Shown: in pieces, positions 39,438 through 57,803 of the stretch
How positions within the stretch are numbered: the stretch's first letter is position 1
Layout: the number at the start of each line of letters is the position of its first letter
NCBI RefSeq assembly: GCF_000383915.1
Contig: NZ_KB912942.1
Coordinates: 6,706,413-6,770,412 of the forward strand
Source: Amycolatopsis benzoatilytica AK 16/65
GTDB lineage: Bacteria; Actinomycetota; Actinomycetes; Mycobacteriales; Pseudonocardiaceae
DNA: 64,000 bases
Direction of reading: 5' to 3'
The notes under the pieces: generated by a model
Seen by the model: only the letters and a program-made list of their open reading frames with translations
Database searches by the model: none
What the model was told of the DNA's origin: nothing
Translations under genes and position numbers: made by a program

Positions 39438-39524
39438 GGTAGCGTGTCCGAGCGGCCTAAGGAGTGCGTCTTGAAAACGCATGAGGGTTGATCCCCTCCG
39501 TGGGTTCGAATCCCACCGCTACCG
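39438..39524 (+). tRNA. tRNA-Ser (anticodon TGA)
   Basis: Class II serine tRNA: acceptor GGTAGCG/CGCTACC, D arm with GTCCGAGCGGCCTAAGGA, anticodon loop CTTGAAA (UGA, reading UCA/UCG), long variable arm GAGGGTTGATCCCCTC and T loop GGGTTCGAATCCC. The discriminator is G and no CCA is encoded. A terminator follows 6 bp later. Confidence 0.96.
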
Positions 39525-39614: not shown

Positions 39615-40109
39615 CTACTGGCTCAGCGTTTCCCGCCGCCCCTCCACCTCGTCCAGATGCTCGAGCACCCGGGTGAACGCGTTCCCCATCGCGGACTGCT
39701 CGTCCGGTGTCAGCAGGTCGATCAAGTGCTCGCGCGCGCCCCGCACATGGGTCGGAGCGGCCTCGGCCAGCACCTCGTGCCCGGCGTCGGTCAACGCGGT
39801 CAGCACCCCGCGCTTGTCGTCCGGATCCGGCCTGCGCGCAACCAAGCCCGCCGACTCCAGTTTGCCGATCTGGTGCGACAGCCGGCTCTTCGTGGAGCCG
39901 AGCAGCGCGGCCAGTTCGGTCATCCGCAAGCACCGGCCCGGGGACGCGTCCAGGACCACCAGCACCTCGTAGTCCGACAGCGATACCCCGTGCGCTTCGG
40001 TCAGCTCGCGGTGCAGGCGCTGGCGCAGCCGCAGCGACGCGACGATGTACGCGCGCCAGGCGTGCTGCTCCGCCGGATCCAGCCAGCGCACGTCCTGGTC
40101 GTCGCTCAT
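39615..40109 (-). CDS. MarR-family transcription regulator
   Basis: A 164-residue winged-helix regulator. The dimer helix comes first (YIVASLRLRQRLHREL), then the DNA-binding unit CLRMTELAALLGSTKSRLSHQIGKLESAGLV with the wing RRPDPDDKRGVLTALTDAG, which is the conserved MarR DxR motif. It likely represses a nearby transport or redox gene in response to a phenolic or oxidant; no divergent partner gene is clear. Confidence 0.9.
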   Translation of the reverse strand: MSDDQDVRWLDPAEQHAWRAYIVASLRLRQRLHRELTEAHGVSLSDYEVLVVLDASPGRCLRMTELAALLGSTKSRLSHQIGKLESAGLVARRPDPDDKRGVLTALTDAGHEVLAEAAPTHVRGAREHLIDLLTPDEQSAMGNAFTRVLEHLDEVEGRRETLSQ

Positions 40110-43804: not shown

Positions 43805-43918
43805 GGGGGACACCGTACGGACGTGCGGTTTCGCCGTTGCCGCGGGGTTGGGCAGAACTGCCCGAACGGCCGCTAGGCTCGGACCCAGGACCGCTAGCCA
43901 GTGACGGGGATGGAGCAC

Positions 43919-44485
43919 ATGAGCGAGCCGCACTTCCGGGGAATGGGCGCAACCGGGGACGGAACGGACGCGTCGCACGTGGTCGTCGTCGGACCGGACG
44001 GGGTTCCGGTCGGCAGCGCACAGATCGCCCCCGAGGGGGAAGAAGCCGAATCGGCGGTCGGCGACCTCGTCGAGGAACCGGCCAAGGTGATGCGCATCGG
44101 CACGATGATCAAGCAGCTGCTGGAGGAGGTCCGCGCCGCTCCGCTCGACGACGCCAGCCGCGACCGGGTGCGTGAGATCCACCAGACCTCGGTGAAGGAG
44201 CTGGAGCAGGCGCTCGCGCCGGAGCTGCGCGACGAGCTGGAACGGCTCGTGCACCCGTTCACCGAGGACCGCACGCCCTCGGACGCGGAGCTGCGGATCG
44301 CGCAGGCGCAGCTGGTCGGCTGGCTGGAAGGGCTGTTCCACGGCATCCAGACCGCGCTGTTCGCGCAGCAGATGGCCGCGCGGGTGCAGCTGGAGCAGAT
44401 GCGCCGCGGCCTGCCCGCCGGCTCGTCCGGCCGGGGCGGCGAGACGCCGGGCCCGGGGATCTCCGGAACTGGGCAGTACCTCTAG
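43919..44485 (+). CDS. bpa: Bacterial proteasome activator Bpa (PafE)
   Basis: A 188-residue ATP-independent activator of the 20S proteasome. The conserved core KVMRIGTMIKQLLEEVRAAPLDDASRDR and LRIAQAQLVGWLEGLFHGIQTALFAQQMAARVQLEQMR (in parts) forms the four-helix ring subunit. The last four residues GQYL are the motif that docks into proteasome pockets and opens the gate. The N-terminus is variable, as in the family; ATG codons at 43910 and 43919 are both possible. Its stop overlaps the convergent epoxide hydrolase stop by 4 bp. Proteasome genes are not in this window. Confidence 0.94.
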   Translation: MSEPHFRGMGATGDGTDASHVVVVGPDGVPVGSAQIAPEGEEAESAVGDLVEEPAKVMRIGTMIKQLLEEVRAAPLDDASRDRVREIHQTSVKELEQALAPELRDELERLVHPFTEDRTPSDAELRIAQAQLVGWLEGLFHGIQTALFAQQMAARVQLEQMRRGLPAGSSGRGGETPGPGISGTGQYL

Positions 44486-45624
44486 AGCCCGGAGAAGAAC
44501 GCTCGCAGGTCGCCGATCACCGCGTCGGGTTCCTCGAGCGCGGGGAAATGCCCGCCGCGCGGGAACTCCGTCCATCGGACGATCCGGTCGGTGCGCTCGG
44601 CGAGCTGCCGGATCGGCAGCCCGATGTCGTCCGGGAAAACGGCGACCGCGGTGGGCACGGCGGAGATCGACGGCTGCGCGCCCCACTGCACGTCCTGGTA
44701 GGCGTAAATCCGCGAGGACGACGCGGCGGTGCCGGTGAACCAGTAGATCGAGACGTTGGCGAGCAGGTCGTCGCGGTCGATCAGGTCGTGGTCGGCGTTG
44801 GAGAAGGAGCGGAACTTCTCCGCGATCCAGGCCAGCTGCCCGGCCGGGGAGTCGGTGAGGCCGAAGGCAAGCGTTTGCGGCTTGGTGGACTGGATCATCG
44901 CGTAGCCGATGCCGGTGCGCTGGAAGGCACGCGCTTTGTCCAGGGAACGCTGTCCCAGCTCCCGGTCGTCCAGGCCGTCGAGGTCCTCCTCGGTGCGGGC
45001 GACCGCGGACGGCAGCATGGTCACATGCGCGCCGACGACCCGCTCGGGGAACTGGACGCCGAGCTCGCGGGAGATGAGCGCGCCCCAGTCGCCGCCGTGC
45101 GTGCCGAACCGGTCGTAGCCGAGCCGGGTCATCAACTCGGCCCACGCTCGGGCTGTCCGCGCCGGTCCCCAGCCGCGGTCGCGGGTCGGCCCGGAGAACC
45201 CGAAGCCCGGGACCGAGGGAACGACGACGTGGAACGCGGTGGCCGGGTCGCCGCCGTAGGCACGCGGGTCGGCCAGTGGGCCGATGAGGTCGAGGAACTC
45301 GACGATTGAGCCAGGCCAGCCGTGCGTGAGCAGCAGCGGGAGGGCGGTCGGCTCCGGCGACCGCAGATGCAGGAAGTGGACGTTCGCGCCGTCGATCGTG
45401 GTGGTGAACTGCGGAAAGCCGTTGAGGCGGTCTTCCTGGGCGCGCCAGTCGAACTTGAGGCGCCAGTGGTGGGCCAGGTCTTGGACTTCGGCGACCGGGA
45501 TGCCCAGGTCCCAGGCCGGATCGTCGAACGGGTCGGGCCAGCGGGTCGCGGCCAGCCGGCGGTGCAGGTCGTCCAGGTCGGATTGGCGGACGTGGACTCG
45601 GTACCGGGTGAGGTCTTGGGCCAT
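44482..45624 (-). CDS. Epoxide hydrolase with EHN domain
   Basis: A 380-residue alpha/beta hydrolase. The N-terminal EHN segment (YRVHVRQSDLDDLHRRLAATRWPDP) is typical of microsomal-type epoxide hydrolases. The oxyanion motif is LLLTHGWPGS, the nucleophile Asp is in GTHGGDWGALI, and the catalytic His is in RGGHFPALEEPD. Tyr residues in the cap (IYWFTGTAASSSRIYAY) would protonate the epoxide. It hydrolyses epoxides to diols; likely detoxification. It follows pseG by 92 bp on the same strand but is not functionally linked. Confidence 0.9.
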   Translation of the reverse strand: MAQDLTRYRVHVRQSDLDDLHRRLAATRWPDPFDDPAWDLGIPVAEVQDLAHHWRLKFDWRAQEDRLNGFPQFTTTIDGANVHFLHLRSPEPTALPLLLTHGWPGSIVEFLDLIGPLADPRAYGGDPATAFHVVVPSVPGFGFSGPTRDRGWGPARTARAWAELMTRLGYDRFGTHGGDWGALISRELGVQFPERVVGAHVTMLPSAVARTEEDLDGLDDRELGQRSLDKARAFQRTGIGYAMIQSTKPQTLAFGLTDSPAGQLAWIAEKFRSFSNADHDLIDRDDLLANVSIYWFTGTAASSSRIYAYQDVQWGAQPSISAVPTAVAVFPDDIGLPIRQLAERTDRIVRWTEFPRGGHFPALEEPDAVIGDLRAFFSGL

Positions 45625-45716
45625 GTCCGGAGGCTAAGCGGGATTGCGGACCAGGGCGGTCCTCGATGAACCGATTTCGCCGACCGGTCAACTCCCCCGG
45701 TCATCGGCGTCCTCGG

Positions 45717-46682
45717 TCACCAGTTCAACGAATCGAGCACCCGGTCCACCCCGTGCCCGTCCACCGCGGCCCGCCCTGCCGAAGAGAGCCGCGCCCGCAG
45801 CGAAGCGTCCGACAACAGCTGCCGCAGCGTCTCCGTCACCTCCGGCAGGCGGTCGGCCAGCGTTTCCGCTTTCCCCAGCCCGCGTGCCAAGCCCCGCTCC
45901 AGCGCCGCCCGGTAGCCCGTCGCCTGGTTGTCCACCAGCTGCACCGCGGCCGTCGGCACGCCCAGGCAGCACAGCTCCAGAAACGTCACTCCCGAGGCGC
46001 TGATCGCGACCTCCGTCGCCACGAGCAGATCGAGCAACCCCGCGTGCGGCGCGGCGATCCGGATCTCCTGACCCTCCACAGTGGACGGAAGCGAAGGCTC
46101 GCCGCGCACCAAGGCGTCGGCGGTGAAAGGCAATCCGGTATCCGCCAACGCTCGCAGCAGCAGCGAAACCGTCGAGGCCCATTCCGCGCCACCGCCCAGC
46201 ACGACCGTGACATGCGGCGGCTCCGACGACTCGGCCCGCCGTGCCCGGGCGTTCAGCACGACGTCCCGCAGCGGCGTGTACTCCACCCCGCGCAGCAGCA
46301 GGCCCGAACCGTCGTCCGGTCGCGGCGCGGGCGCGAAGCCCGAATCCACCACGACATCAGCCGGGCGCCTGCCGAACGTATCGTCCTCAATGGACATCAG
46401 CCGGGCCCCGGCGGCGTTGACCTCGGCCCGGACGTCGCCGATGCCGTAGTGGTCCACCAAGACCGCGTCGAAGCCGGCCGCCAGCCCGGGCCAGGAGGTG
46501 ACCGGCAACCGCGGCACGGACAGCTCGTCGAACCGGGCGGCCAGCCACTCCGCGTTGGTCGTCGATCCGGCGAACCGCACGTCCCAGCCGCGCGCGACCG
46601 CGCGTTCGGCGTAGGCGACCATCCGGGAGATGTGCCCGGCCCCGATGTCCGGCGACGAGTCGGCCCGCAGCAGCAGCTTCAC
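45717..46682 (-). CDS. pseG: UDP-2,4-diacetamido-2,4,6-trideoxy-altropyranose hydrolase (PseG-like)
   Basis: A 321-residue GT-B-fold nucleotide-sugar hydrolase that removes UDP from the pseudaminic acid precursor. GTG at 46682 overlaps the cytidylyltransferase stop (GTGA). Diagnostic blocks: LLLRADSSPDIGAGHISRM with the catalytic His, LVDHYGIG, MSIEDDTFGRRPADVVVDSG, VVLGGGAEW and ISASGVTFLELCCLGVP. SpsG in spore-coat loci is a near relative. Context with pseB, pseC, pseH and pseI supports PseG. Confidence 0.88.
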   Translation of the reverse strand: MKLLLRADSSPDIGAGHISRMVAYAERAVARGWDVRFAGSTTNAEWLAARFDELSVPRLPVTSWPGLAAGFDAVLVDHYGIGDVRAEVNAAGARLMSIEDDTFGRRPADVVVDSGFAPAPRPDDGSGLLLRGVEYTPLRDVVLNARARRAESSEPPHVTVVLGGGAEWASTVSLLLRALADTGLPFTADALVRGEPSLPSTVEGQEIRIAAPHAGLLDLLVATEVAISASGVTFLELCCLGVPTAAVQLVDNQATGYRAALERGLARGLGKAETLADRLPEVTETLRQLLSDASLRARLSSAGRAAVDGHGVDRVLDSLNW

Positions 46683-47416
46683 TGGCCGACCTTCTTCTGC
46701 TCGACCTCCGCGTTCAGCGCCACCAGATCCGGCCGCGACCGCAGCAACGACACCACCGAACGCCACGAGCCCGCCGCGTCGCCGAGCTCGGCGACCACCG
46801 CGGAGATCAGCTCCCAGTCCTGCGCGGTGTCCAGCGTGACCCGCAGGTCCTCGGCCGCCGGGCTGACCACGACACCGGTGCAGGAGTACCGGTGCGGCTG
46901 CCGGTAGATCGCCGAGGTCACGTGCTCGCGGTCGGCTCCGGTCGCGGTCGCCGCCTGCTCCGCCAGCACCGGCGCCCGCACGAGTTCGGCGTCGAACCCG
47001 CGGGGCAGGGTCCGCACCAGCGTGGTGGAGACATAGTCCAGCGTCGGCTCGGCCCGCCAGATCGCGACCAGCCGCCCGATCAGCGCCGGATCGAGCAGCG
47101 GGCAGTCGGCGGTGAGACGGATCACGGCGTCCGCCGGGTACTCCGACAGCGCGAGCCCGAACCGGGCCACCACGTCGTCGAGCGGACCCCGCACCACGGC
47201 CGCGCCACAGCGGGCGGCTTCGGCGGCGACCGCGTCGTCGTCCTCGGCATCCGAGGTCGCGACCACCACCCGGTCAACGCCGGGAGCGGCAGCGGCGGCC
47301 CGGACGACCCAGCCCAGCACGCTCCGTCCGGCCAGCGGCCGCAGCACCTTCCCGGGCAGCCGGGTCGAGGAGGACCGGGCCTGTATCACGGCGTTGACGC
47401 CGGGGCCTGCACGCAT
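46679..47416 (-). CDS. pseF: Cytidylyltransferase (SpsF/PseF-like)
   Basis: About 245 residues, a GT-A-like CMP-sugar synthetase. NAVIQARSSSTRLPGKVLRPLAG carries the CTP-binding signature; AVIRLTADCPLLDPALIGRLV has the metal Asp. Last part LRVTLDTAQDWELISAVVAEL is typical of SpsF/KdsB-like enzymes. It should activate the nonulosonic acid with CMP. SpsF-type proteins also occur without such a role, so symbol is by context. Start 47416 (MRAGPG) or 47425 (MSPMRAG). It is divergent from pseB, 63 bp apart. Confidence 0.8.
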   Translation of the reverse strand: MRAGPGVNAVIQARSSSTRLPGKVLRPLAGRSVLGWVVRAAAAAPGVDRVVVATSDAEDDDAVAAEAARCGAAVVRGPLDDVVARFGLALSEYPADAVIRLTADCPLLDPALIGRLVAIWRAEPTLDYVSTTLVRTLPRGFDAELVRAPVLAEQAATATGADREHVTSAIYRQPHRYSCTGVVVSPAAEDLRVTLDTAQDWELISAVVAELGDAAGSWRSVVSLLRSRPDLVALNAEVEQKKVGQ

Positions 47417-47479
47417 GGGTGACATGATGGCCTGCGGCGCACCGCGCCGATCCACGAACCCCAACCGCGGAGGTCATCG

Positions 47480-48463
47480 ATGTCCGAGCTGGATGGCTCC
47501 AGCATCCTGCTCACCGGCGGGACCGGCTCTTTCGGCAAGGCGTTCATCGCCTACGCGCTCGAGAAGCTGAACCCCAGCCGGCTCGTGGTGCTCTCCCGCG
47601 ACGAGCTGAAGCAGTACGAAGCCCGGCAGCTGTTCAACGACGACCCGCGGCTGCGCTGGTTCATCGGCGACGTACGCGACCGCCGTCGTCTCGAACGCGC
47701 CATGCACGGTGTCGACTACGTGGTGCACGCCGCCGCGCTCAAGCAGGTCGACACCGGCGAATACAACCCGTTCGAATTCGTCCAGACCAATGTCACCGGC
47801 TCGCAGAACGTGATCGAGGCGGCAATCGACACCGGCGTGCAGAAGGTCGTCGCGCTGTCGACCGACAAGGCGTCCAGCCCGATCAATCTCTACGGCGCCA
47901 CCAAGCTGTGCGCGGACCGGATGTTCATCAGCGGCAACCACTACGCGGCCGCGCACCCGACCCGGTTCTCCGTGGTGCGCTACGGCAACGTGATGGGTTC
48001 GCGCGGCAGCGTCATCCCGTTCTTCCGCAAGCTCGCCGAGCAGGGCGAGTCGCTGCCGATCACGCACAAGGACATGACCCGGTTCTGGATCACGCTGCCG
48101 CAGGCCGTCCAGTTCGTGGTCGACTCGTTCGACCAGATGTCCGGCGGCGAGCTGTACGTGCCGCGCATCCCGAGCATGCGGCTGGTCGACCTGGCCCAGG
48201 CCATCGCGCCCGGTTCGCCGATGCACGAGGTCGGCGTGCGCCCGGGCGAGAAGCTGCACGAAGAGATGATCGCGCCGGATGACGCGCGCCGGACCGTGCG
48301 GCTGTCCGACCGCTACGTCGTGCAGCCGCACCTCGCCGGCTGGGGCTACGAACCGCCCGCCGCCGGCGAAGAAGTGCCGGAGGGCTTCGCGTACCGCTCG
48401 GACACGAACGATCTCTGGCTGGAAGCCGACGAGCTGCGCGAGCTGGTCGAGCAGTATGCCTGA
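47480..48463 (+). CDS. pseB: UDP-N-acetylglucosamine 4,6-dehydratase, inverting (PseB)
   Basis: A 327-residue SDR-type dehydratase/5-epimerase, first step to pseudaminic acid. The NADP motif is LLTGGTGSFGKAFI at residues 10-23. The active region has ALSTDKASSPINLYGATKLCADR with the YxxxK pair and the Asp/Lys of inverting enzymes. VVRYGNVMGSRGSVIPFF and EKLHEEMI are further PseB/FlaA1 blocks. Length matches PseB (about 330). GAGGTC ribosome site upstream; its stop overlaps pseC by 8 bp. Confidence 0.93.
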   Translation: MSELDGSSILLTGGTGSFGKAFIAYALEKLNPSRLVVLSRDELKQYEARQLFNDDPRLRWFIGDVRDRRRLERAMHGVDYVVHAAALKQVDTGEYNPFEFVQTNVTGSQNVIEAAIDTGVQKVVALSTDKASSPINLYGATKLCADRMFISGNHYAAAHPTRFSVVRYGNVMGSRGSVIPFFRKLAEQGESLPITHKDMTRFWITLPQAVQFVVDSFDQMSGGELYVPRIPSMRLVDLAQAIAPGSPMHEVGVRPGEKLHEEMIAPDDARRTVRLSDRYVVQPHLAGWGYEPPAAGEEVPEGFAYRSDTNDLWLEADELRELVEQYA

Positions 48464-49631
48464 GTCCGATGCCGTCTCCGCGGGAAAGAGCACGTCGGCG
48501 GAGTTCCTGCCATACGGCCGCCAGTCGGTCAGCGAGGAAGACATCGAAGCGGTCGTCGCCGTCTTGCGCGGCGACTGGCTGACCACCGGACCCGCGGTCG
48601 CGCGGTTCGAAGCGGACCTGGCTGAACACACCGGCGGCACGCCGGCGGTGGCTGTCACGTCCGGTACCGCGGCGCTGCACGTTGCTTACGCCGCGGCCGG
48701 AATCGGTTCGGGCGACGAGGTGGTCGTGTCGCCGATGACCTTCGTGGCGACCGCCGCGACGGCCGCGCTGCACGGAGCGAAGGTGGTGTTCGCGGACGTC
48801 GAGCCGGACACCGGAAACCTGTCCGTCGACGCCGCCGCGGCCGCGATCACCAGCCGTACCAAGGTGATCGCCGCGGTGGACTACGCCGGACACCCGGCCG
48901 AGCTGGACGCACTCGGGAAGCTCGCGCACGACGCGAACGCCCTCCTGCTGGAAGACGCCGCCCACTCCGTCGGCGGCGCCTGGCAGGGCCGTCCGGTCGG
49001 GTCGATCGCCGACCTGACCACGTTCTCGTTCTTCCCCACCAAGAACCTGACCACCGCCGAGGGCGGCGCCGTCGTCACCGGATCCGCCGAGCTGCTGCAA
49101 CGCGCGCAAGCGTTCCGCAACCACGGACTGGTCCGCGACAAGAGCCGCCAGCGCTACCCGGACGAGGGCGGCTGGCACCAGGAAGTGCACGAGTTCGGGC
49201 TGAACTACCGGCTGCCAGACGTCCTGTGCGCTCTCGGCAGCAGCCAGCTGACGCGGCTGGCTGAGTTCAAGGTGCGCCGGGCCGACATCCACGCGCGGTA
49301 CAACGCCGCGCTCGCGGAGGTGGAGGGTGTCTTGACCCCGCCGCGCCGCGACGGCGCGGACCCGGTCTGGCACCTGTACCCGCTGCGAGTGCTGGAGGGC
49401 CGACGGCGAGCCCTGTTCGAGCACTTGCGCGCGCTGGGCATCGGCGTGCAGGTCAACTACATCCCGGCGTACTGGCATCCGGTGTTCGAGGATCTGGGCT
49501 ATCGACGGGGGTTGTGCCCCGCCGCGGAAACGTATTACGAGCAGGAGCTTTCGCTGCCGTTGTTCCCGTCGCTCACCGACGCGGACGTGGATCGGGTGAT
49601 CGACGGGGTGCGCGAGTTCTTCAGGAGCTGA
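48456..49631 (+). CDS. pseC: UDP-4-amino-4,6-dideoxy-N-acetyl-altrosamine transaminase (PseC)
   Basis: A 391-residue DegT/DnrJ/EryC1 aminotransferase. It begins inside the pseB end (8-bp overlap). Blocks: PYGRQSVSEEDIEAVVAVLRGDWLTTGP, VTSGTAALHVAYAA, LLLEDAAHSVGGAWQGRPVGS, and FFPTKNLTTAEGG with the PLP Lys196. C-terminal NYIPAYWHPVFEDLGY and LPLFPSLTD are shared with PseC. It aminates C4 of the PseB product. Confidence 0.93.
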   Translation: MPESDAVSAGKSTSAEFLPYGRQSVSEEDIEAVVAVLRGDWLTTGPAVARFEADLAEHTGGTPAVAVTSGTAALHVAYAAAGIGSGDEVVVSPMTFVATAATAALHGAKVVFADVEPDTGNLSVDAAAAAITSRTKVIAAVDYAGHPAELDALGKLAHDANALLLEDAAHSVGGAWQGRPVGSIADLTTFSFFPTKNLTTAEGGAVVTGSAELLQRAQAFRNHGLVRDKSRQRYPDEGGWHQEVHEFGLNYRLPDVLCALGSSQLTRLAEFKVRRADIHARYNAALAEVEGVLTPPRRDGADPVWHLYPLRVLEGRRRALFEHLRALGIGVQVNYIPAYWHPVFEDLGYRRGLCPAAETYYEQELSLPLFPSLTDADVDRVIDGVREFFRS

Positions 49632-49645
49632 TCGCGTTTCCCCAG

Positions 49646-49700
49646 GTCCGTGAAAGGCCCCTTGAGGGAATCCAAGTCCGGCAAGGGGCCCTTCACGGAC
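49646..49700. repeat. Interspersed palindromic repeat, copy 3
   Basis: Imperfect 55-bp palindrome: gtccgtgaaaggccccttg pairs with caaggggcccttcacggac across a short centre. It lies between convergent pseC and pseI. It is the ggcccc subtype, differing from the ggaaca copies at 26749 and 42550. Confidence 0.85.
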
Positions 49701-49817
49701 CACAACTCCGCTCCCGCCGCCCGCATGAGCCCGCTACGAGCCATCCCGGGCCTTCACCCTGGCCAGACCCAGCGAAACCGCACTCACAACGCCGCCTTAA
49801 GTTCCCGGCATTGAGAC

Positions 49818-50867
49818 TCAGAGCAGATCCCACGTCAGCGCGGTCCCCTTGGCGGCATCCACCCGGAACGTCCGTCCCAGCACCGTCGTGATCTCCCCCG
49901 GCGCCAGACCGCCGGCCGGCCGGATCGACCGGACGTTCTGTGGCGTCACCACCTCGCCCGCGCGCACGTCCTCCACCACGTACAGCGACCGGCGCAGGCG
50001 CAGACCTTCCTTCTCGCTCTCGCGCGGTCCCAGCACCGGCGAACCGAGCGCCTCCCACGCGCGATGTGTCTCCGTGACCAGCGCGGCCAGCTCCGTCGGC
50101 TCCAGTGAGAATTCCGAATCCACCCCGCCGTCGCTGCGTGCCAGTGTGACGTGCTTCTCGATCGCGACCGCGCCCAGCGCGACGGCCGCGACCGGCGCGC
50201 CCAGGCCCGGCGTGTGGTCGGAAAGGCCCACCAACGTCCCGGTGAGGCCGGCCAGCAGCGGCAGGCCGCGGAGGTTGCTCTCGGTCGGCGACGCCGGGTA
50301 GCTGGCCGTGCAGCCGAGCACCACCAGCTGGTCGTTGCCCGCCGCCCGGGCGGTGCGCACTGCCGCGTCGATCTCCGCGACGTTCGCCATCCCGGTGGAG
50401 ATCACCAGCGGCTTGCCGGTGCGCGCGCACAGCTCGATCAGCGGCAGGTCGACGATCTCCGACGAGGCGATCTTGTACGCGGGCGCGTCCAGCGATTCCA
50501 GCAGCTCCACCGCGGTCGGGTCGAACGGGCTGGAGAAGATCTCCAGTCCGCGCTCCCGAGCGCGAGCGAAGAGCGGCGCGTGCCATTCCCACGGGGTGTG
50601 CGCCTTTTCGTAAAGCTGGTACAGGTTCTCCCCGCCCCACAGCGAATGCCCGTCGCCGATCCGGAACGCCGGGCCGTCGACGTCGACGGTGATGGTGTCC
50701 GGCCGATACGTCTGCAGCTTCACCGCGTGTGCGCCGGCCTCGGCGATCGCGTCCACGATGGCCAGCGCGCGGTCGAGATCACCGTTGTGGTTGCCGGACA
50801 TCTCCGCGATGACGAAGGGCGGCTGCTCCGGTCCGAGCAGGTGCTTGCCTATGCGGACTTCGGACAT
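49818..50867 (-). CDS. pseI: Pseudaminic acid synthase (PseI, NeuB family)
   Basis: A 349-residue NeuB-type enzyme condensing the hexose with phosphoenolpyruvate to the nine-carbon acid. ATG at 50867 follows GGAAGGAC. Blocks: FVIAEMSGNHNGDLDRAL, AVKLQTYRPDT, LEIFSSPFDPTAVELLE, YKIASSEIVDLPLI, VLGCTASYPASP, SDHTPG and AIEKHVTLARSDGGVDSEFS. A C-terminal SAF/antifreeze-like domain (VRAGEVVTPQNVRSIRP) closes it. The WGGENLYQLYEKAHTPWEWH segment is typical of PseI over NeuB. Confidence 0.93.
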   Translation of the reverse strand: MSEVRIGKHLLGPEQPPFVIAEMSGNHNGDLDRALAIVDAIAEAGAHAVKLQTYRPDTITVDVDGPAFRIGDGHSLWGGENLYQLYEKAHTPWEWHAPLFARARERGLEIFSSPFDPTAVELLESLDAPAYKIASSEIVDLPLIELCARTGKPLVISTGMANVAEIDAAVRTARAAGNDQLVVLGCTASYPASPTESNLRGLPLLAGLTGTLVGLSDHTPGLGAPVAAVALGAVAIEKHVTLARSDGGVDSEFSLEPTELAALVTETHRAWEALGSPVLGPRESEKEGLRLRRSLYVVEDVRAGEVVTPQNVRSIRPAGGLAPGEITTVLGRTFRVDAAKGTALTWDLL

Positions 50868-50890
50868 GGGTGGCGTCCTTCCGGTGTGGG

Positions 50891-51358
50891 TCAGTGCAGA
50901 GTCTTGCGCAGCCGCCGGAAGCCGTCCGCGGCGGGCGCGTCCTCCAGGTAACCAGCTCGCTCGAACAACGCCGCCGAGGCCGCGTTGTCCGGATGCACCG
51001 CGGCGAGCACCGCTGCCGCGTCCGTGCGGGCGGCCAGCGCCTGCTCTCCGGCGGCGAGCACTGGGCGGGAGAGCCCGCGGCCCCGGCTGCCCGGCGCGAG
51101 CGTGATGCTGACCTCCCATTCGCGGTCGCCCTCGTCGTCGAACCGCACCGTGCCGACCGGAGTCCCGGCCCGCATCGCTACCAGCAGTATCCGGTCCGGC
51201 GCCGTGAGCACCCGGCGCAACCAGCGCAGGTGACTGTCGAGGTCGATCACCCCGGCCGACCGCGACGCCTGCCTCGTCGCCGGATCGTTGCGCCAGGACA
51301 GCAGCAGCTCGGCGTCGTCCTCGGTCGCGTCGCGGACGGTGACCGCGGGTGCCGTCAC
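50891..51358 (-). CDS. pseH: GNAT N-acetyltransferase (PseH-like)
   Basis: A 155-residue GNAT. VTVRDATEDDAELLLSWRNDPATRQASR opens it; the acetyl-CoA loop is ITLAPGSRGRGLSRPVLAAGE, a Q/RxxGxG/A variant. The C-terminal VHPDNAASAALFERAGYLE is typical. RNDPxxR and xxxHLRWL are shared with PseH, which acetylates N4 of the altrosamine. GTG at 51358 overlaps the coiled-coil gene stop (GTGA), and pseI begins 23 bp downstream. Confidence 0.85.
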   Translation of the reverse strand: MTAPAVTVRDATEDDAELLLSWRNDPATRQASRSAGVIDLDSHLRWLRRVLTAPDRILLVAMRAGTPVGTVRFDDEGDREWEVSITLAPGSRGRGLSRPVLAAGEQALAARTDAAAVLAAVHPDNAASAALFERAGYLEDAPAADGFRRLRKTLH

Positions 51359-51798
51359 GATGCCGGAGTGAACTTCGCGTTCTCGAGCCGGCTGAGCCGT
51401 TCCTCGTACCGGGCGACGCCGGCCATCCGGATCCGGATCTGCGCGTGCTGACGCTGGATCTCCTCGATCAGCGACCGCGCCTCGAGGTTGTCCCCGGCGT
51501 CCGAGCGCGGCGTCATCGCGATCGATTCGCGCAGCGTCTCCAGCTGCGCTTCCTGGGCCGCGACATGCGGGATCATCCGGTCCAGCTCGCCGCGGATCCA
51601 GCGCAGGTCGCCGGCCGCGGTCTCCAGCCGGCTCTCCGTCTCGTCGAGCCGGCGGCGGTGGTCGACGGTGCAGTGCTCGAGCTCGTCGATCCGGGTCTCG
51701 AAGTCCCGGATGACGTCCCGGGTCCGCTCCTCGACGCGGTGGTCGACGATCCGGGCGAGGCGGGCGCCGAAGAGGTTTCTGAGCTTGGCGACGGGCAT
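51355..51798 (-). CDS. Small coiled-coil protein in the pse operon, unknown
   Basis: A 147-residue, charged, almost wholly helical protein. The first 20 residues (MPVAKLRNLFGARLARIVDHR) are amphipathic and basic and could touch membrane; the rest is heptad-like (RIDELEHCTVDHRRRLDETESRLETAAGDLRWIRGELDRM, in parts). ATG at 51798 has GAAGGAAA upstream. It lies between the transferase and pseH, translationally coupled to pseH by a GTGA overlap. It resembles the coiled-coil parts that accompany glycosyl/methyl-transferases in polysaccharide loci, perhaps a scaffold or chain-length ruler; this is inference. Confidence 0.7.
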   Translation of the reverse strand: MPVAKLRNLFGARLARIVDHRVEERTRDVIRDFETRIDELEHCTVDHRRRLDETESRLETAAGDLRWIRGELDRMIPHVAAQEAQLETLRESIAMTPRSDAGDNLEARSLIEEIQRQHAQIRIRMAGVARYEERLSRLENAKFTPAS

Positions 51799-51838
51799 AG
51801 CGGGTTTCCTTCGGGAAGTGCCGGAGCCGGCAGTGGCT

Positions 51839-52498
51839 TCAGCGGAGCAGGGTGGTGGTGCCGGTGCGGGTCCAGGACTCCAGCAGCCGGCCCTCGGCGG
51901 CGATCTGGTGCTCGGGGCCGACGATGCACGAATCGCCTGCCGCGTGCTCCCACGAGGTCTGGTCCGGGTTGTCGATGAACGAGAACCCGGTGAGCACCAG
52001 CTGCGCCTCGGGGAAAGACGTACGGGCGATCCAGGCCGCGAGGGTACCCGTGGTCGACCAGGTCGGCTCGGAGCGCGTGGGCAGCCCGAGCGCGTCCGAC
52101 AGCGGCAGCACGACGTCGCGGTTCGACACCGGGACGAAGCCGAGGTCCTCGGGCCACCAGCCGGGCAGGTCCTCCGGCTCCCAGTGCAGGCGGCCCGGCT
52201 CGACCAGCAGGTACAGCCGGCGGCGGTAGTCGCGGAAGACATGCCGGGTGGCGCGCACCGCGCGGTTGAAGACCACCGCATGCACCTTGCGTCCGGTGAC
52301 ATCCGGACCATCCGGTTCGTCCACTACGAACCCGTTGACGCGAATGACCAGGTCACAGTCGTCGACTGCCTTGGCGCGCGCCGGGTCCGGAGCCAGCGGC
52401 TGGTTGCCGACCACGGCCACCGAACGCGGGTCCGGCCGGTCCGCATACGCCGAAAGCAGGTCGCCCATCAAGCTCGCCGCACCAAGAGCAGCACTCAT
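51839..52498 (-). CDS. Sialyltransferase-like (GT29/GT42-type) putative nonulosonyltransferase
   Basis: About 219 residues. SVAVVGNQPLAPD near the N-terminus and DDCDLVIRVNGF match the L-type sialylmotif (GNxxxL, D-x-D-x-V-x-R-x-N). Later GRKVHAVVFN, STTGTLAAWIA (S-motif-like) and QLVLTGFSFIDNP follow the order of GT42/GT29 enzymes, and GPEHQIAAEGRLL could hold the catalytic His. CMP-nonulosonic acid is the expected donor given the pse genes. First gene of the minus-strand operon (transferase, coiled coil, pseH, pseI). No clear ribosome site for 52498; MGDLLSAYAD at 52468 is an alternative start. Confidence 0.7.
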   Translation of the reverse strand: MSAALGAASLMGDLLSAYADRPDPRSVAVVGNQPLAPDPARAKAVDDCDLVIRVNGFVVDEPDGPDVTGRKVHAVVFNRAVRATRHVFRDYRRRLYLLVEPGRLHWEPEDLPGWWPEDLGFVPVSNRDVVLPLSDALGLPTRSEPTWSTTGTLAAWIARTSFPEAQLVLTGFSFIDNPDQTSWEHAAGDSCIVGPEHQIAAEGRLLESWTRTGTTTLLR

Positions 52499-52646
52499 AG
52501 AGGAGAAAACTACCAGGACACAAGGAACGACCATGCCCGTATCGCCCGAACACACGCACCGGCCGGGCCGTGATCAAGCCGAGGTCGCGCCGTGATCGAG
52601 CCGGGGCGGACCGAGCCCGCCGCGCCCCATCGGTACCCTCGTCCAC
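52499..52646. promoter_or_regulatory. Divergent region between pse operon and galactan exporter operon
   Basis: 148 bp between divergent starts. It must hold promoters for the transferase-pseH-pseI operon and for wzm-wzt-glfT1. A segment at 52499-52530 is AT-richer. No dyad of note. Confidence 0.35.
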
Positions 52647-53600
52647 GTGCATGCCACCAGCACGGTTCACGCAGCCGAACCCGATGTGTCGACCTCGGTT
52701 CCACCGACGTCGGACAGCAAGACGTTCAAGCGTGCGATCGAAGACATCAGGTCCGGTTTGGCCGCCCGTGAGCTCTGGACTCACCTCGGCTGGCAGGACA
52801 TCAAGCAGCGCTACCGGCGCTCGGTCATCGGGCCGTTCTGGATCACCATCAGCCAGGGCGTCATCGCGCTCGGCCTGGGCCTGCTGTACTCGCAGCTGTT
52901 CCGCACGCCGATCGAGGTGTTCCTGCCCTACCTCTCCACCGGCTTCATCATCTGGGGATTCATCCAGGGCTGCCTCACCGAGGGCATGGAAACGTTCATC
53001 TCCAACGAGGGGATGATCAAGCAGCTGCCCGCGCCGCTGAGCGTCTATGTGCTGCGCACGATCTGGCGCCAGACGATCCAGCTCGCGCACAACATGATCG
53101 TCTACGTCGTGCTGCTGATCATTTTCTTCTCGGCGCTCGACAATCCGTATTCGCTCGGGTCGAAAGACGGTGCCTGCCTGCCCGACAAGTACTGCCATCC
53201 GGGCCTGAGCTGGAACATCTTCCTCGCCATCCCCGGGTTCGTGCTGCTCGCGCTGACCGCCGGCTGGGCGGCGCTGCTGCTGGGCATCATCTCGACCCGG
53301 TTCCGGGACATCCCGCAGCTGATCAACTCGCTGATCCAGCTGATGTTCTACGGCACCCCGATCGTCTGGCCGGTCGACCAGCTGCTGTCCGGCGGGGCCC
53401 GCGACGGCGCGTCCTGGGCGCTGCCGATCATCAAGCTGAACCCGCTTTACCACTACATGCAGGTGGTGCGAGGGCCGCTCATCGGACAGGCGGTGAGCTG
53501 GACCAGCTGGGCAGTGGTCGGCGGGCTCACCGTGGTCGGGTGGGGGCTCGCCCTCGTCGCCATGCGCAATTACCGGTCCCGCGTCTCGTATTGGGTGTGA
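52647..53600 (+). CDS. wzm: Galactan ABC exporter permease (Wzm)
   Basis: A 317-residue ABC-2-type permease with six membrane helices. IRSGLAARELWTHLGWQDIKQRYRRSVIGPFWITISQGV (in parts) is the typical N-terminal coupling segment of Wzm/TagG exporters, followed by VFLPYLSTGFIIWGFIQGC. Together with the ATPase 3 bp downstream and GlfT1 it matches mycobacterial Rv3783/Rv3781/Rv3782, which move lipid-linked galactan across the membrane. GTG start at 52647. Confidence 0.9.
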   Translation: MHATSTVHAAEPDVSTSVPPTSDSKTFKRAIEDIRSGLAARELWTHLGWQDIKQRYRRSVIGPFWITISQGVIALGLGLLYSQLFRTPIEVFLPYLSTGFIIWGFIQGCLTEGMETFISNEGMIKQLPAPLSVYVLRTIWRQTIQLAHNMIVYVVLLIIFFSALDNPYSLGSKDGACLPDKYCHPGLSWNIFLAIPGFVLLALTAGWAALLLGIISTRFRDIPQLINSLIQLMFYGTPIVWPVDQLLSGGARDGASWALPIIKLNPLYHYMQVVRGPLIGQAVSWTSWAVVGGLTVVGWGLALVAMRNYRSRVSYWV

Positions 53601-53603
53601 CAG

Positions 53604-54419
53604 ATGGTCAGCATTGACGTCCACAACGCGTACGTGGACTTCCCGATTTTCGACGCGAAATCGCGTTCGATGAAAAAGCGCGTGCTCGGCAAGGTCGGCG
53701 GCAAGATCGGCACCGAGCAGAAGGTGCCGATCATCGAGGCGCTGCACGACGTGTCGATCAGCCTGCGCGAGGGCGACCGCGTCGGTCTCGTCGGGCACAA
53801 CGGCGCGGGCAAGTCCACGCTGCTGCGGCTGCTCGCCGGCATCTACGAGCCGACCCGGGGCTCGTCCCGGATCGTCGGCAAGATCGCGCCGGTGTTCGAC
53901 CTCGGCATCGGCATGGACCCGGAGATCTCCGGCGAGGAGAACATCATCATCCGCGGTCTTTTCCTCGGCATGAGCGCCAAGGAAATGGAGAAGCGGGTCG
54001 ACGACATCGCGGAGTTCACCGAGCTCGGCGACTACCTGCAGATGCCGCTGCGCACCTACTCCACCGGTATGCGGGTCCGGCTCGCGCTGGGCGTGGTGAC
54101 CTCGATCGACCCGGAGATCCTGATCCTGGACGAGGGCATCGGCGCGGTCGACGCGGCGTTCCTGAACAAGGCCCGCGACCGGCTCAAGGACCTGGTCAAA
54201 CGGTCCGGCATCCTGGTGTTCGCCAGCCACTCCGACGAGTTCCTCTTCGAGCTGTGCGACTCCGCGATCTGGATGGACGAGGGGCGGCTCAAGCAGCAGG
54301 GATCGCTGCGCGAGGTGCTCACCGGCTACAAGGGCCGCGACCCGTTCGAGAACATGAGCCAGGAAGGTCTCGAGCGCCTCGGCATCGAGCCCGCGACCAC
54401 GAAGAACGGCGGGGAATGA
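53604..54419 (+). CDS. wzt: Galactan ABC exporter ATPase (Wzt)
   Basis: A 271-residue ATPase of the polysaccharide-exporter type. VHNAYVDFPIFDAKSRSMKK at the start is characteristic. Walker A is GHNGAGKSTLL, the signature TYSTGMRVRLALGV, Walker B EILILDEGIGAVD, and FASHSDEFLFELCD has the H-loop. There is no C-terminal carbohydrate-binding domain, as in Rv3781. The stop overlaps glfT1 ATG (ATGA). Confidence 0.92.
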   Translation: MVSIDVHNAYVDFPIFDAKSRSMKKRVLGKVGGKIGTEQKVPIIEALHDVSISLREGDRVGLVGHNGAGKSTLLRLLAGIYEPTRGSSRIVGKIAPVFDLGIGMDPEISGEENIIIRGLFLGMSAKEMEKRVDDIAEFTELGDYLQMPLRTYSTGMRVRLALGVVTSIDPEILILDEGIGAVDAAFLNKARDRLKDLVKRSGILVFASHSDEFLFELCDSAIWMDEGRLKQQGSLREVLTGYKGRDPFENMSQEGLERLGIEPATTKNGGE

Positions 54420-55327
54420 TGACCAGCGAGACGCGGGAGCTGCCCGAAGGCGCCGTTGTCGGCGTGGTGGTCACGCGGCATCGTCGTGAGCTGCTCGCGG
54501 ACTCGCTGAAAATCCTCGCCGCCCAGACGCGGCCGATCGACCACCTCGTGGTGGTGGACAACGGGCCGGACAAGCCGGCCCGCGAAGTGGTCGAGGGCTA
54601 CCCGCTGCCGTACACGTACCTGCCGTCGCACCGCAATCTCGGCGGCGCGGGCGGGTTCGCGCTCGGCATGCTGCACGCGTTGTCGATGGGCGCGGAATGG
54701 GTGTGGCTCGCCGACGACGACGGACGGCCCGCCGACGAGCACGTGCTGGAAATCCTGCTGGAAGAGGCCGAGAAGCGCGGGCTCGCCGAGGTTTCCCCGG
54801 TGGTGGCGAACATCGACTCCCCGGCGAAGCTGGCGTTTCCGCTGCGCCGCGGACTCACCTGGAAGCGTTCGTCGGCGGAGCTGGGCACGGACTTCCTGCC
54901 CGGCATCGCGTCGCTGATGAACGGCGCGCTCTTCCGAGCGTCCACTTTGGACGTCACCGGCGTGCCGGACCTGCGGCTGTTCTTCCGCGGCGACGAGGTG
55001 GAACTGCACCGCCGCCTGGTCCGCTCCGGCCTGCCGTTCGGCACGTCGCTGCGCACGACCTACCTGCACCCGGACGGCTCGGACGAGTTCAAGCCGATGC
55101 TGGGCGGAAAGTTCCACGCGCAGGACCCGGAGAACGAGGTGAAGCGGTACTACACCTACCGCAACCGCGGATATCTGCTTTCCCAGCCTGGAATGCGCAA
55201 GATCGGTGCACTGGAAGTGCTGCGGTTCGGGCTGTACTTCGTGGGCGTGAAGCGCGATCCGAAGGCGTTCGCGCAGTGGCTGAAGCTGGTCCGGCAGGGG
55301 CGGGCGGAGAAGTTCTACCGGTACTGA
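54416..55327 (+). CDS. glfT1: Galactofuranosyltransferase GlfT1
   Basis: A 303-residue GT2 enzyme that adds the first galactofuranose residues to the lipid-linked rhamnosyl-GlcNAc primer. ATG codons at 54416 and 54419 follow each other; the first overlaps wzt. Blocks: VVGVVVTRHRRELLADSL, HLVVVDNGPDKPAREV, HRNLGGAGGFALGMLHAL, VWLADDDGRPADE (DDD metal motif) and FFRGDEVELHRRL with the base. YYTYRNRGYLL is shared with GlfT1 relatives. Confidence 0.9.
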   Translation: MMTSETRELPEGAVVGVVVTRHRRELLADSLKILAAQTRPIDHLVVVDNGPDKPAREVVEGYPLPYTYLPSHRNLGGAGGFALGMLHALSMGAEWVWLADDDGRPADEHVLEILLEEAEKRGLAEVSPVVANIDSPAKLAFPLRRGLTWKRSSAELGTDFLPGIASLMNGALFRASTLDVTGVPDLRLFFRGDEVELHRRLVRSGLPFGTSLRTTYLHPDGSDEFKPMLGGKFHAQDPENEVKRYYTYRNRGYLLSQPGMRKIGALEVLRFGLYFVGVKRDPKAFAQWLKLVRQGRAEKFYRY

Positions 55328-55411: not shown

Positions 55412-56584
55412 CTACTCCCCGATCACCGGCGGCGCGGACCGGTGCCCGCCGCCGAAGTCTTCGTTTTCGTCGATCTCCATGACGAACGCCGGCTGGTCGT
55501 GCCCGTCGTCGTAGGGGCGGGCGCCGAAGCCCATCCCCGGACGTGCCGGCGCGCCGCCCATTCCGCCGGCCGCGACATCCGCCGCACCCGGGGTCATCGC
55601 GCCGTCGCCGGGACCGAAGCCCGCGTTGGCGCCGCCGCGGCCGACCTTGCTTTGGTGTTCCTCGTCGGCGCCGAAACCGCCGCCTCCGCCGCCCATCGGC
55701 ATCCCGCCCATCGGCATCGCACCCATGCCGGCACCGCCCGCGTTGCCGCCGGCCGGACCGGAGTGGGCCGCGGCGGGCGCGTAGCCGGCCGCCGTCGTGG
55801 AAGCGTCGGGGACCGCCTGGTGCACAGCACCGGTGAACTGGGTCGGGCCGCTGACCGTGGGCGTGCTCTGCGAAACCGCCGAATGGTCAGCCGGAGCGCC
55901 TGCCGCTGCCGCGCCACCGCCACCCGCCGCGGCCGGAGCCGGGCTCGCCGGAGTGTCCGCGTGGCCGCCCGAGTGCTCGCCACCGGTCGGCATCGCGACG
56001 GCCGAGCCGCCGCTCACCGCGGCGCCGAACTTCGGCGGGTGCGCGAAGGTCGGCTGCTTCGAGCCCGACGAGTACAGCGACGCGTCGTACTGCTTCATCG
56101 TCTCCGCGGCCTGCTCGTGCGCCGAGCGGCTCTCCTGCTGCTTCTTCAGCGAGTCGTCGATCGCGTTGCTCATTTCGAGCGGCGTCGCGTGCGACCACTT
56201 GTCGAATTCCTCGGTCCAGTCGAACGGGACCGCTTCCGGCATCGAGTGTTTCGCCACCTGCGCCGCGGACGCCTGCTCTTCGACGTTCTGCGCGGCCAGC
56301 TTCGCGTTCTGCGCGTTCGCTTCCGCCCACTCGCTAAGGCTGGTGAAGTACGCCTGCGCACCAGCGGCCGCCTCGCCGCTCCACGCGTGCGCGGCCTTCT
56401 TCACGGCTTCGCCCAGCTGCGTCGAGAACTCCTCGAACGCCTTCTGCACCTCGGTGTAGGCGTGCGACACCGAGGAAACCTGCTCCACGTCGAGGTTCGT
56501 CTCGACGTAGGCCTTCAACTGCTGGTGCGGATGCCCGAGGTAGTCGGCGTCAGACGGCGCGAGCCCCGGCTGCGGCGTGCTCAT
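55412..56584 (-). CDS. PPE-type protein with Gly-rich linker and C-terminal PPVIGE motif
   Basis: A 390-residue type VII substrate. The N-terminal 180 residues are helical and hold AHAWSGEAAAGAQAYF (WxG turn near residue 68), plus YTEVQKAFEEFSTQLG ahead of it. A Gly/Ala/Pro/Met-rich region (GMGAMPMGGMPMGGGGGGFG) follows, then an acidic end EIDENEDFGGGHRSAPPVIGE. The tail FGG...PPVIGE is shared with the protein at 14156-15436. Its ATG overlaps the stop of the small partner gene (ATGA), as expected for co-folded heterodimers. Confidence 0.8.
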   Translation of the reverse strand: MSTPQPGLAPSDADYLGHPHQQLKAYVETNLDVEQVSSVSHAYTEVQKAFEEFSTQLGEAVKKAAHAWSGEAAAGAQAYFTSLSEWAEANAQNAKLAAQNVEEQASAAQVAKHSMPEAVPFDWTEEFDKWSHATPLEMSNAIDDSLKKQQESRSAHEQAAETMKQYDASLYSSGSKQPTFAHPPKFGAAVSGGSAVAMPTGGEHSGGHADTPASPAPAAAGGGGAAAAGAPADHSAVSQSTPTVSGPTQFTGAVHQAVPDASTTAAGYAPAAAHSGPAGGNAGGAGMGAMPMGGMPMGGGGGGFGADEEHQSKVGRGGANAGFGPGDGAMTPGAADVAAGGMGGAPARPGMGFGARPYDDGHDQPAFVMEIDENEDFGGGHRSAPPVIGE

Positions 56585-57000
56585 TCGGTGCCCTTCACGG
56601 TCCGGTGAGTGTCGATGGCCTGGTTCTCGTTCTCCGTGTAGACCCCGCCCGCGCGCGCCAGCGCCTCGTCCGCCTCCTGCAGGATCCGGCCGAACTGGTC
56701 CAGCACATCGGCAGCCGAGCCGTGCGCGTCCGCGCCGCTCTTGCGGTCATGCTCGGCGACGGTCTGCCCGTACGGGTGGCTGCCCAGCTTCGGAGCGGAC
56801 GCCAGCGCCTGCGTCTGCGGCTTGAGCCGCTCGAGACGGGTGACCATGTCGGTGAGCGCGGCTCGGAGATCGCCCAGCGCGTTCGTGTCGATGCTGAACC
56901 CGCCGGCTTTCGCGGCACCGGCCAGCTTGTGCGTTTCGGCCGCGGCTTCGGCGAGGCCCTTGGCGTTCAGCCCGCCGGCCGCCAGCGGATCAGTGCTCAT
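56581..57000 (-). CDS. Small PE/EsxB-like type VII partner with YxxxE signal
   Basis: A 139-residue helical protein. FSIDTNALGDLRAALTDMVTRLERLKPQTQALASAP (in parts) is the first long helix; SAADVLDQFGRILQEADEALARAGGVYTENENQAI is the second, ending in YTENE, the YxxxD/E export signal in its usual place after the last helix. There is no WxG, which lies in the partner. It begins 32 bp after the EspG gene and overlaps the PPE-like gene. Confidence 0.8.
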   Translation of the reverse strand: MSTDPLAAGGLNAKGLAEAAAETHKLAGAAKAGGFSIDTNALGDLRAALTDMVTRLERLKPQTQALASAPKLGSHPYGQTVAEHDRKSGADAHGSAADVLDQFGRILQEADEALARAGGVYTENENQAIDTHRTVKGTE

Positions 57001-57032
57001 GCGCCGGAGTGTACCGACGGGCGCGCCTTCGG

Positions 57033-57803
57033 TCAGGCGTTTGCCGAATACCCTTCAAGCTGGGTGAACAGCTGCTGGGCCAAACGGGCATTGTCAGCCG
57101 GCGCATAGGTGAGCCAGCGCTGGCCGTCGCTCGCGTCACGGGTGCTGAGCAGGTACCGGCCGAGCTCGGTGTCGAACCAGGCGAGCGAAGGCAGCGACTG
57201 TTCGTGGCCGCGTCCGTCGCCGATGTGCACGGTGAACTGCCCGACCGCCAGCCGCGGCTTCTCGAAGATCCGCTCCACTGCCCGCAGCTGCGGGTTGTGC
57301 GTTCGCGGGCCGCTGACCCCGGCGAACGGGTCGTAGGCGTCGCCGCGCACTGGCTTCTTCGCCGGACGCGCGACGGTGACCGACTGGCCGGGCGCGGCGG
57401 GCGTCAGCGGCAGCAGGTCGACGATCGCCGGGACGATGCCGGTCGGACGGACCTCTTCGAAGGTGAACATGCCGTCGCGGTGCACCACGAGCACCGCGTA
57501 GTTGGCGCCATTGGACGCGACCCGCGCGAACAGCTGCTCGTCGCCGAGCTTGGCCGCCGCGGAAACAGCGATGCTGGGCCGGGCGAAGGTGGCGAGCGCG
57601 ATCTCCACGTCGTCGTCGACGCTCCCGCGGCGCAGCAATCCGCGCCCGTCGAGGTCGCGCATCACGGCGTCGCGCACCGCGGCGCGCTCGTCGCCGGTGA
57701 TGCCGATGTGCGGCACCACGAACGGCACCGGTGCGCGGCCCAAGCCGAGCTCGGCCAGCAGGAGATCCACCGCTGCCGGCGACAGCGTGAACGAATACGG
57801 CAC
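57033..57803 (-). CDS. ESX secretion-associated protein, EspG family
   Basis: A 256-residue EspG-type chaperone, first gene of the second type VII module. FTLSPAAVDLLLAELGLGRAPVPFVVPHIG opens it; ISTDDERAAVRDAVM-like helical region, then EQLFARVASNGANYAVLVVHRDGMFTFEEVRP and an extended loop LPSLAWFDTELGRYLLSTRDASDGQRWLTYAPAD (in parts) complete the fold. Its partner pair is encoded right after it. No ATPase, mycosin or EccB-E gene is in the window, so export must use machinery encoded elsewhere. Confidence 0.83.
   Translation of the reverse strand: MPYSFTLSPAAVDLLLAELGLGRAPVPFVVPHIGITGDERAAVRDAVMRDLDGRGLLRRGSVDDDVEIALATFARPSIAVSAAAKLGDEQLFARVASNGANYAVLVVHRDGMFTFEEVRPTGIVPAIVDLLPLTPAAPGQSVTVARPAKKPVRGDAYDPFAGVSGPRTHNPQLRAVERIFEKPRLAVGQFTVHIGDGRGHEQSLPSLAWFDTELGRYLLSTRDASDGQRWLTYAPADNARLAQQLFTQLEGYSANA

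Follow-up and report, generated by a model that had tools for sequence, protein, structure and literature searches.

A 64-kb stretch of the 8.70-Mb single-contig genome of Amycolatopsis benzoatilytica AK 16/65 (hereafter the window) carries, between the bpa gene and the genes for a galactan exporter, a set of nonulosonic acid genes together with a gene for a sialyltransferase-like glycosyltransferase of the GT29 type. Genes were called by using the guanine-plus-cytosine (GC) content at codon positions to choose the frame, in combination with family models. From left to right, the genes encode BPA on the forward strand, an epoxide hydrolase-like protein, PseG and PseF on the reverse strand, PseB and PseC on the forward strand, PseI, PseH, a long-helix partner protein and the GT29 protein on the reverse strand, and finally Wzm, Wzt and GlfT1 on the forward strand (Table 1). 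The run from PseI to GT29 is nearly continuous, and overlaps join PseG with PseF, PseB with PseC and PseH with the partner gene.

Table 1 Features between bpa and the galactan genes of the window, with the evidence for each
Feature	Position	Strand	Evidence
BPA, left border of the variable slot	43901–44485	+	PF10759, 254.5 bits
PseG-like UDP-sugar hydrolase	45717–46682	−	TIGR03590, 81.6 bits, below cut-off 153.55
PseF/SpsF-like CMP-nonulosonate synthetase	46679–47425	−	PF02348, 87.4 bits; 6oew cytidylyltransferase, E 6.9e-26
PseB inverting UDP-GlcNAc 4,6-dehydratase	47480–48463	+	TIGR03589, 483.7 bits, cut-off 407.75; 2gn4, E 5.5e-108
PseC aminotransferase	48456–49631	+	TIGR03588, 421.4, cut-off 423.5
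PseI pseudaminic acid synthase	49818–50867	−	TIGR03586, 447.6, cut-off 340.25; 8h2c pseudaminic acid synthase, E 3.4e-71
PseH-like GNAT acetyltransferase	50891–51358	−	PF13302, 57.8 bits; TIGR03585, 37.3, below cut-off 93.1
Coiled-coil-like partner protein, conserved, 147 amino acids	51355–51798	−	All 77 loci have a similar gene 3′ of GT29
GT29-type sialyltransferase-like glycosyltransferase, 219 amino acids (209 if the start is at 52468)	51839–52498	−	Motifs, predicted fold, Pfam matches of relatives
Divergent intergenic region between GT29 and wzm, 148 bp	52499–52646		
Wzm, galactan exporter permease	52647–53600	+	PF01061
Wzt, galactan exporter ATPase	53604–54419	+	NF050108 'galactan export', 465.3, cut-off 400
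GlfT1 galactofuranosyltransferase	54419–55327	+	NF050113, 499.6, cut-off 330
GlfT2 galactofuranosyltransferase	58386–60296	−	PF19320, PF17994

Homologues of pseB, pseC, pseF, pseG, pseH and pseI, which an initial annotation made from the letters of the window had proposed, are all found between positions 45717 and 51358. That annotation had drawn the pse set out to position 52498, but the segment 51355–52498 holds no pse gene and instead encodes the long-helix protein and the GT29-type protein, which that annotation does not mention. PseB and PseI score above the cut-offs of their curated models, and PseC, whose best score among the families listed is with TIGR03588, falls 2 bits short. The other three of the six, PseF, PseG and PseH, are divergent and lie below equivalog cut-offs (for example, 32 bits for the PseF/SpsF-like protein with TIGR03584, against a cut-off of 205.7), and PseG gave no sequence match in the PDB at E ≤ 0.01. 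The grouping of the six genes is not a product of chance, because 47 of 77 related loci have PseB and PseC homologues next to this GT29 gene.

The most likely product is pseudaminic acid or a close isomer, because PseB and PseI pass their cut-offs, because PseI scores far better with its own model than as NnaB (259.1 against a cut-off of 399.65), and because it is the sole NeuB-family (PF03102) match in the genome. PseB, PseC, PseH, PseG, PseI and PseF would thus lead from UDP-N-acetylglucosamine (UDP-GlcNAc) to CMP-pseudaminic acid or such an isomer. The divergence of PseF, PseG and PseH could instead mean that the product is another C9 sugar, for example a different isomer of a diamino nonulosonate, or that the enzymes supply the synthesis of a small secreted metabolite. 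This we consider quite improbable, given the scores of PseB, PseI and PseC on the one hand and, on the other, the linkage to galactan genes and the lack of any recognised natural-product enzyme among the neighbours scanned. The CMP-pseudaminic acid pathway is known from Campylobacter and Helicobacter. The locus resembles it in holding a homologue of every one of the six steps, and differs from it in the divergent PseF, PseG and PseH, in having no known flagellin target and in residing within an actinobacterial galactan region.

The closest relatives of the window GT29 protein are found in Amycolatopsis dendrobii, A. echigonensis, A. nivea and A. orientalis DSM 43388, with up to 95% identity. 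An H-x4-E pattern, which we take to be sialylmotif VS, is invariant in 36 of 36 and in 24 of 24 rows, and aligns with ST8SiaIII within a stretch that is not significant alone. The region of sialylmotif L is matched by PF00777 above the cut-off in the relatives P0073 and P0116, and at E ≤ 0.01 in 11 of the 24 members of set A2, the window protein not being among these; the A2 profile matches ST6Gal1 with an E value of 0.0091. The structure predicted for the protein also has the GT29 fold. A phmmer search of the PDB with the window protein returned just two rows, both SAC1 phosphatase (E 0.59 and 0.78), and the protein contains no strongly hydrophobic segment. Its use of a CMP-nonulosonate donor is predicted from the genomic link to NeuB-family genes described below. 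Thus, the window protein and its relatives share with GT29 sialyltransferases, known from animals, the L-like region, the H-x4-E pattern and the predicted fold, whereas they form an actinobacterial branch of about 210 amino acids that is tied to pse, Kdn-type or Neu-type genes and to the partner gene. GT29-like bacterial proteins were reported in 2018 from Proteobacteria, in the parts of that paper available, and the words actinobacteria and Amycolatopsis are absent from its main text (PMC5811610).

The partner genes of the 77 loci were recognised by tblastn (69) or by an open reading frame with the C-terminal pattern (8), the C-terminal end being the best-conserved part of the protein. In the predicted model of the window protein (predicted template modelling score 0.48), residues 2–95 and 102–143 form helices of 94 and 42 residues. 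Matches of the partner to Pfam are weak and all below cut-offs; its coiled-coil nature was judged from the sequence and the helix prediction.

To the right of GT29, Wzt and GlfT1 pass curated models that are named for galactan export and galactan initiation, and two Emb-type arabinosyltransferases score above the cut-off in the window's genome; for these reasons the organism very probably makes arabinogalactan. The mycobacterial galactan export locus comprises bpa, wzt, glfT1 and wzm, with bpa followed directly by the exporter genes. The window likewise encodes BPA, Wzm, Wzt, GlfT1 and GlfT2, but between bpa and wzm it has a 6.8-kb acidic-sugar module and the epoxide hydrolase-like gene. The initial annotation was right that pse genes separate bpa (43901–44485) from the exporter (52647–54419). 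At a locus of the same genus (L131), BPA and Wzm are just 209 bp apart.

We compared this arrangement in 77 loci from named genomes (labelled L) and in 249 genomes of Pseudonocardiaceae, two samples that overlap (G040 and L030, for instance, represent one genome, with matching coordinates). Comparison across Amycolatopsis and its relatives, which the initial annotation had put forward as a check, reveals that the arrangement recurs in many Pseudonocardiaceae. In the first sample, GT29 lies within 5.3 kb of Wzm at 58 loci; the fetched flank holds no Wzm at the other 19, which belong to Geodermatophilaceae (8), Pseudonocardiaceae (5), Nocardioidaceae (3) and Microbacteriaceae (3). In the second sample, GT29 is present in 61 genomes and within 7 kb of Wzm in 54 of them. 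Among the remaining seven, five have GT29 on another contig or far from the listed Wzm (in G032, G228 and G201, for instance, it is on a different contig from the best wzm row or 657 kb away from it) and two have no Wzm among the matches listed, although the fetched stretch of one of these, G049, reveals Wzm adjoining GT29. A class-wide draw of 394 genomes gave seven GT29 matches, including the window's own and three weak ones.

GT29 is likewise linked to nonulosonate synthesis. A strong NeuB-family match (at least 128 bits) occurs in 58 of the 61 GT29 genomes, within 6 kb in 53, and in 13 of the 188 genomes without GT29; the three GT29 genomes that have no strong NeuB match give only split GT29 matches. 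At all eight Geodermatophilaceae loci, the module is accompanied by a gene judged by eye to be purK-like and by one of the GtrA type (tested with PF04138 at two loci); three of the eight also have an Emb-type arabinosyltransferase 5–6 kb away (PF04602 tested for L048, tblastn for the others). In this family the module keeps a link to arabinan synthesis where the galactan exporter is not seen adjacent.

Some loci depart from the usual content. In Sciscionella L030 and L032 (G040:C36 and G074:C46), Wzm adjoins GT29 and the partner, the fetched flank contains no sugar genes, and the NeuB-family gene is on another contig. Neither GT29 nor the partner occurs in the stretch fetched for L138 (G050, genus g5), which encodes PseI (71%), PseH, PseG and PseF; these pse genes may depend on another transferase.

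Across the 58 exporter loci, GT29 is constant while the sugar genes vary. Loci were typed by tblastn, with curated models applied to L057, L041, L070 and L050. The pse set (type A) accounts for 38 exporter loci and, counting all 77 loci, for 47. Type B, at 13 exporter loci, combines a short NeuB with a CMP-sugar synthetase that carries a fused KDN-9-phosphatase-like domain (83 bits in L057, for a cut-off of 180), and its predicted product, also for A. bartoniae and A. deserti, is 2-keto-3-deoxynononic acid (Kdn). Type C comprises NeuB, NeuC and NeuA, with NeuC above the TIGR03568 cut-off in three of three tested; it occurs at 4 exporter loci (10 of 77 overall) and is predicted to yield N-acetylneuraminic acid (Neu5Ac). 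Three exporter loci were assigned to none of these types.

The cassettes have been replaced in place, as judged from two kinds of evidence. In a FastTree phylogeny built on four flank genes of 45 loci, the sugar types are interleaved (5 changes, against a mean of 14.5 when shuffled), and A. arida, of type C, carries a relic pseF (full-length, without a stop, 73% identical) between its neuraminic-acid cassette and BPA. The GT29 tree agrees, with 12 type changes against a shuffled mean of 28.2 when untyped loci form a fourth label. The transferase itself also varies: a subfamily II of GT29 (T45, H68, T184) comprises all 13 Kdn-type rows and 6 of the 10 neuraminic-type rows. A strict match between subfamily and sugar type was rejected, since neuraminic-type rows are split over both subfamilies and L041 and L050 lack H68, G70 and T184. 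The neuraminic-type rows L054 and L055, inside subfamily I, do share these three residues with subfamily II, which makes positions 68, 70 and 184 candidates for donor specificity. In two Kdn-type Amycolatopsis loci (L063:11056–12678 and L075:11075–12715), a protein of about 540 amino acids, polytopic by eye, is encoded just after the partner gene; for the one in L063, Pfam gave no match at E ≤ 0.001.

Relatives without GT29 fill the slot differently. Nine same-genus genomes in the draw lack GT29 and all nine have Wzm. The slot was fetched in seven, of which five hold a polysaccharide pyruvyl transferase (PF04230 above the cut-off in all five), one has a gene-free interval of 209 bp and one has no recognised gene; in the other two, a pyruvyl-transferase homologue lies 1.0–1.3 kb from Wzm, so that such a gene stands beside wzm in seven of the nine. 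Among the 249 genomes, 73 have a homologue. At least 11 of them carry it within 7 kb of Wzm, and these lack GT29; no Wzm row was available for comparison in 47 of the 73. The two enzymes are not strict alternatives, an idea we rejected because A. marina (L023) and an Actinophytocola metagenome-assembled genome (L043, also G049) hold both in the slot. Several GT29 genomes have a pyruvyl-transferase homologue elsewhere, including that of the window, where a homologue (55%) of the slot enzyme is far from the galactan locus (G000:C1:1412754–1413872). At L137 (G003), a PseG-like gene (50%, 6491–7471) that is probably a trace of a lost cassette lies between the pyruvyl transferase and Wzm, with no match to the other pse queries. 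Pyruvate ketals and nonulosonates each add a carboxylate derived from phosphoenolpyruvate, and the slot therefore appears to serve the acidic modification of galactan.

Taken together, these observations lead us to propose that the bpa–wzm interval is, on balance probably, an exchangeable module that places an acidic nonulosonate on wall galactan. The GT29 enzyme, aided by its dedicated long-helix partner, would transfer the nonulosonate in the cytosol to the lipid-linked galactan made by GlfT1 and GlfT2, and Wzm–Wzt would then export the decorated chain. During evolution, the sugar genes (Pse, Kdn-type or Neu5Ac-type) were swapped while GT29 and the partner were retained, with a pyruvyl transferase filling the slot in other relatives. 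The sequences establish the enzyme families, the GT29 motifs and predicted fold, the conserved linkage and the exchange of cassettes, whereas the exact sugar, the galactan acceptor, the cytosolic timing and the part played by the partner protein are inferences. The initial annotation had suggested that a wall glycan carrying a nonulosonate is made next to the galactan exporter. Its direction is right and is strengthened by the GT29-fold transferase and by the recurrence in Pseudonocardiaceae, but its scope is too narrow: the pseudaminic-only reading does not extend to relatives with Kdn-type or neuraminic-type genes or a pyruvyl transferase, and a separate polymer resembling teichulosonic acid is not favoured.

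Such a polymer belongs to a broader and somewhat unlikely explanation, in which the nonulosonate ends up elsewhere in the envelope, whether on a second, teichulosonic-type wall polymer, on a glycolipid or on a surface protein, and the wzm side is merely a conserved hot spot for cell-surface genes. Teichulosonic acids are known from actinomycetes, and a Promicromonospora wall polymer contains Kdn, according to the available portions of these reports (PMC6194230, PMC6801904 and, for Promicromonospora, PMC6801904). The 19 loci without Wzm in the fetched flank, as well as the distant GT29 genes of G032, G228 and G201, are also in keeping with this alternative. However, GT29 stays within 7 kb of wzm in 54 of 61 genomes through three sugar cassettes, and Emb lies near the module in three Geodermatophilaceae loci. 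Furthermore, a polymer would need additional glycosyltransferases, and those genes at 39457–60608 that were scanned yielded no recognisable one beyond GlfT1 and GlfT2. Teichulosonic acids, although they too place a nonulosonate on a Gram-positive wall glycan, are repeating polymers, whereas here one transferase resides beside a galactan exporter. With one transferase and no recognised partner for polymerisation, the locus suggests that galactan bears a substituent or cap rather than that a separate polymer is made.

A cap raises the alternative that GT29 and its partner act as a chain terminator with a molecular ruler, with the nonulosonate capping the non-reducing end of galactan and fixing its length, by analogy with the CMP-Kdo (2-keto-3-deoxyoctonic acid) terminators of O-antigens exported by Wzm/Wzt. 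In the accessible text of PMC11231755, the Klebsiella O4 terminator is CMP-Kdo-dependent and carries a coiled-coil, and coiled-coil rulers set chain length in O9/O3 and O12. Galactan, for its part, is assembled in the cytosol, and the regulation of its size in mycobacteria is described as still under exploration in the part of PMC10951656 available. The locus shares with the terminators WbdD, WbbB and ORF7-O4 an ABC-exported glycan, a CMP-linked ulosonate donor (as in O4) and a long-helix part, and the invariable presence of the partner beside GT29, with its predicted 94-residue helix, fits such a role. In contrast, those terminators combine enzyme and coiled-coil in one protein, whereas GT29 and the partner are two genes, and a scan with family models recognised no cap-binding domain in Wzt. 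For these two reasons we regard terminator function as unlikely. In addition, the same exporter is kept in all nine same-genus genomes without GT29, and the module is found away from the exporter in other families. Rather unlikely, too, is the fuller version, in which GT29 and partner form a terminator and ruler for galactan length before Wzm–Wzt export, the donor has been swapped several times among Pse, Kdn and Neu5Ac, and an animal-type sialyltransferase puts true sialic acid on the wall galactan of some free-living arabinogalactan bacteria.

Several features of the surrounding DNA complete the description. ESX-type genes occupy 55412–57803, between GlfT1 and GlfT2. They include an EspG family gene (57033–57803, PF14011, 208.5 bits), which many Amycolatopsis loci likewise have close to GlfT1, a gene for 139 amino acids and one for 390 amino acids with a chance-level EspB match (E 0.35). 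No Rfam match was found at 40000–62000 and no sigma-70-like promoter at 52400–52720, where terminator-like matches numbered 1 against 0.3 expected. Open reading frames at 47474–48658, 48090–49703 and 49693–50640 on the reverse strand, as well as the part of the reverse-strand frame 51355–52311 upstream of 51798, were rejected because they have no family match and codon-position GC prefers other frames. A recent foreign island was also rejected, as the GC content of 45001–53000 (0.70–0.72) is inside the range of the window (0.65–0.73).

In the open literature, covered as the titles listed and the beginnings of their abstracts with subscription journals mostly outside, we found no description of nonulosonates at a galactan locus. 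If galactan decoration by this module is correct, it would add an exchangeable layer of acidic sugar to arabinogalactan, a polymer best known from mycobacteria, and would place GT29-type sialyltransferases in bacterial wall assembly. It would also provide a natural series at one locus (Pse, Kdn, Neu5Ac, pyruvate or nothing) for testing the effect of galactan charge, and an approach to galactan length and export. Such surface diversity may matter for recognition by phages or toxins, and for the taxonomy of these antibiotic producers.

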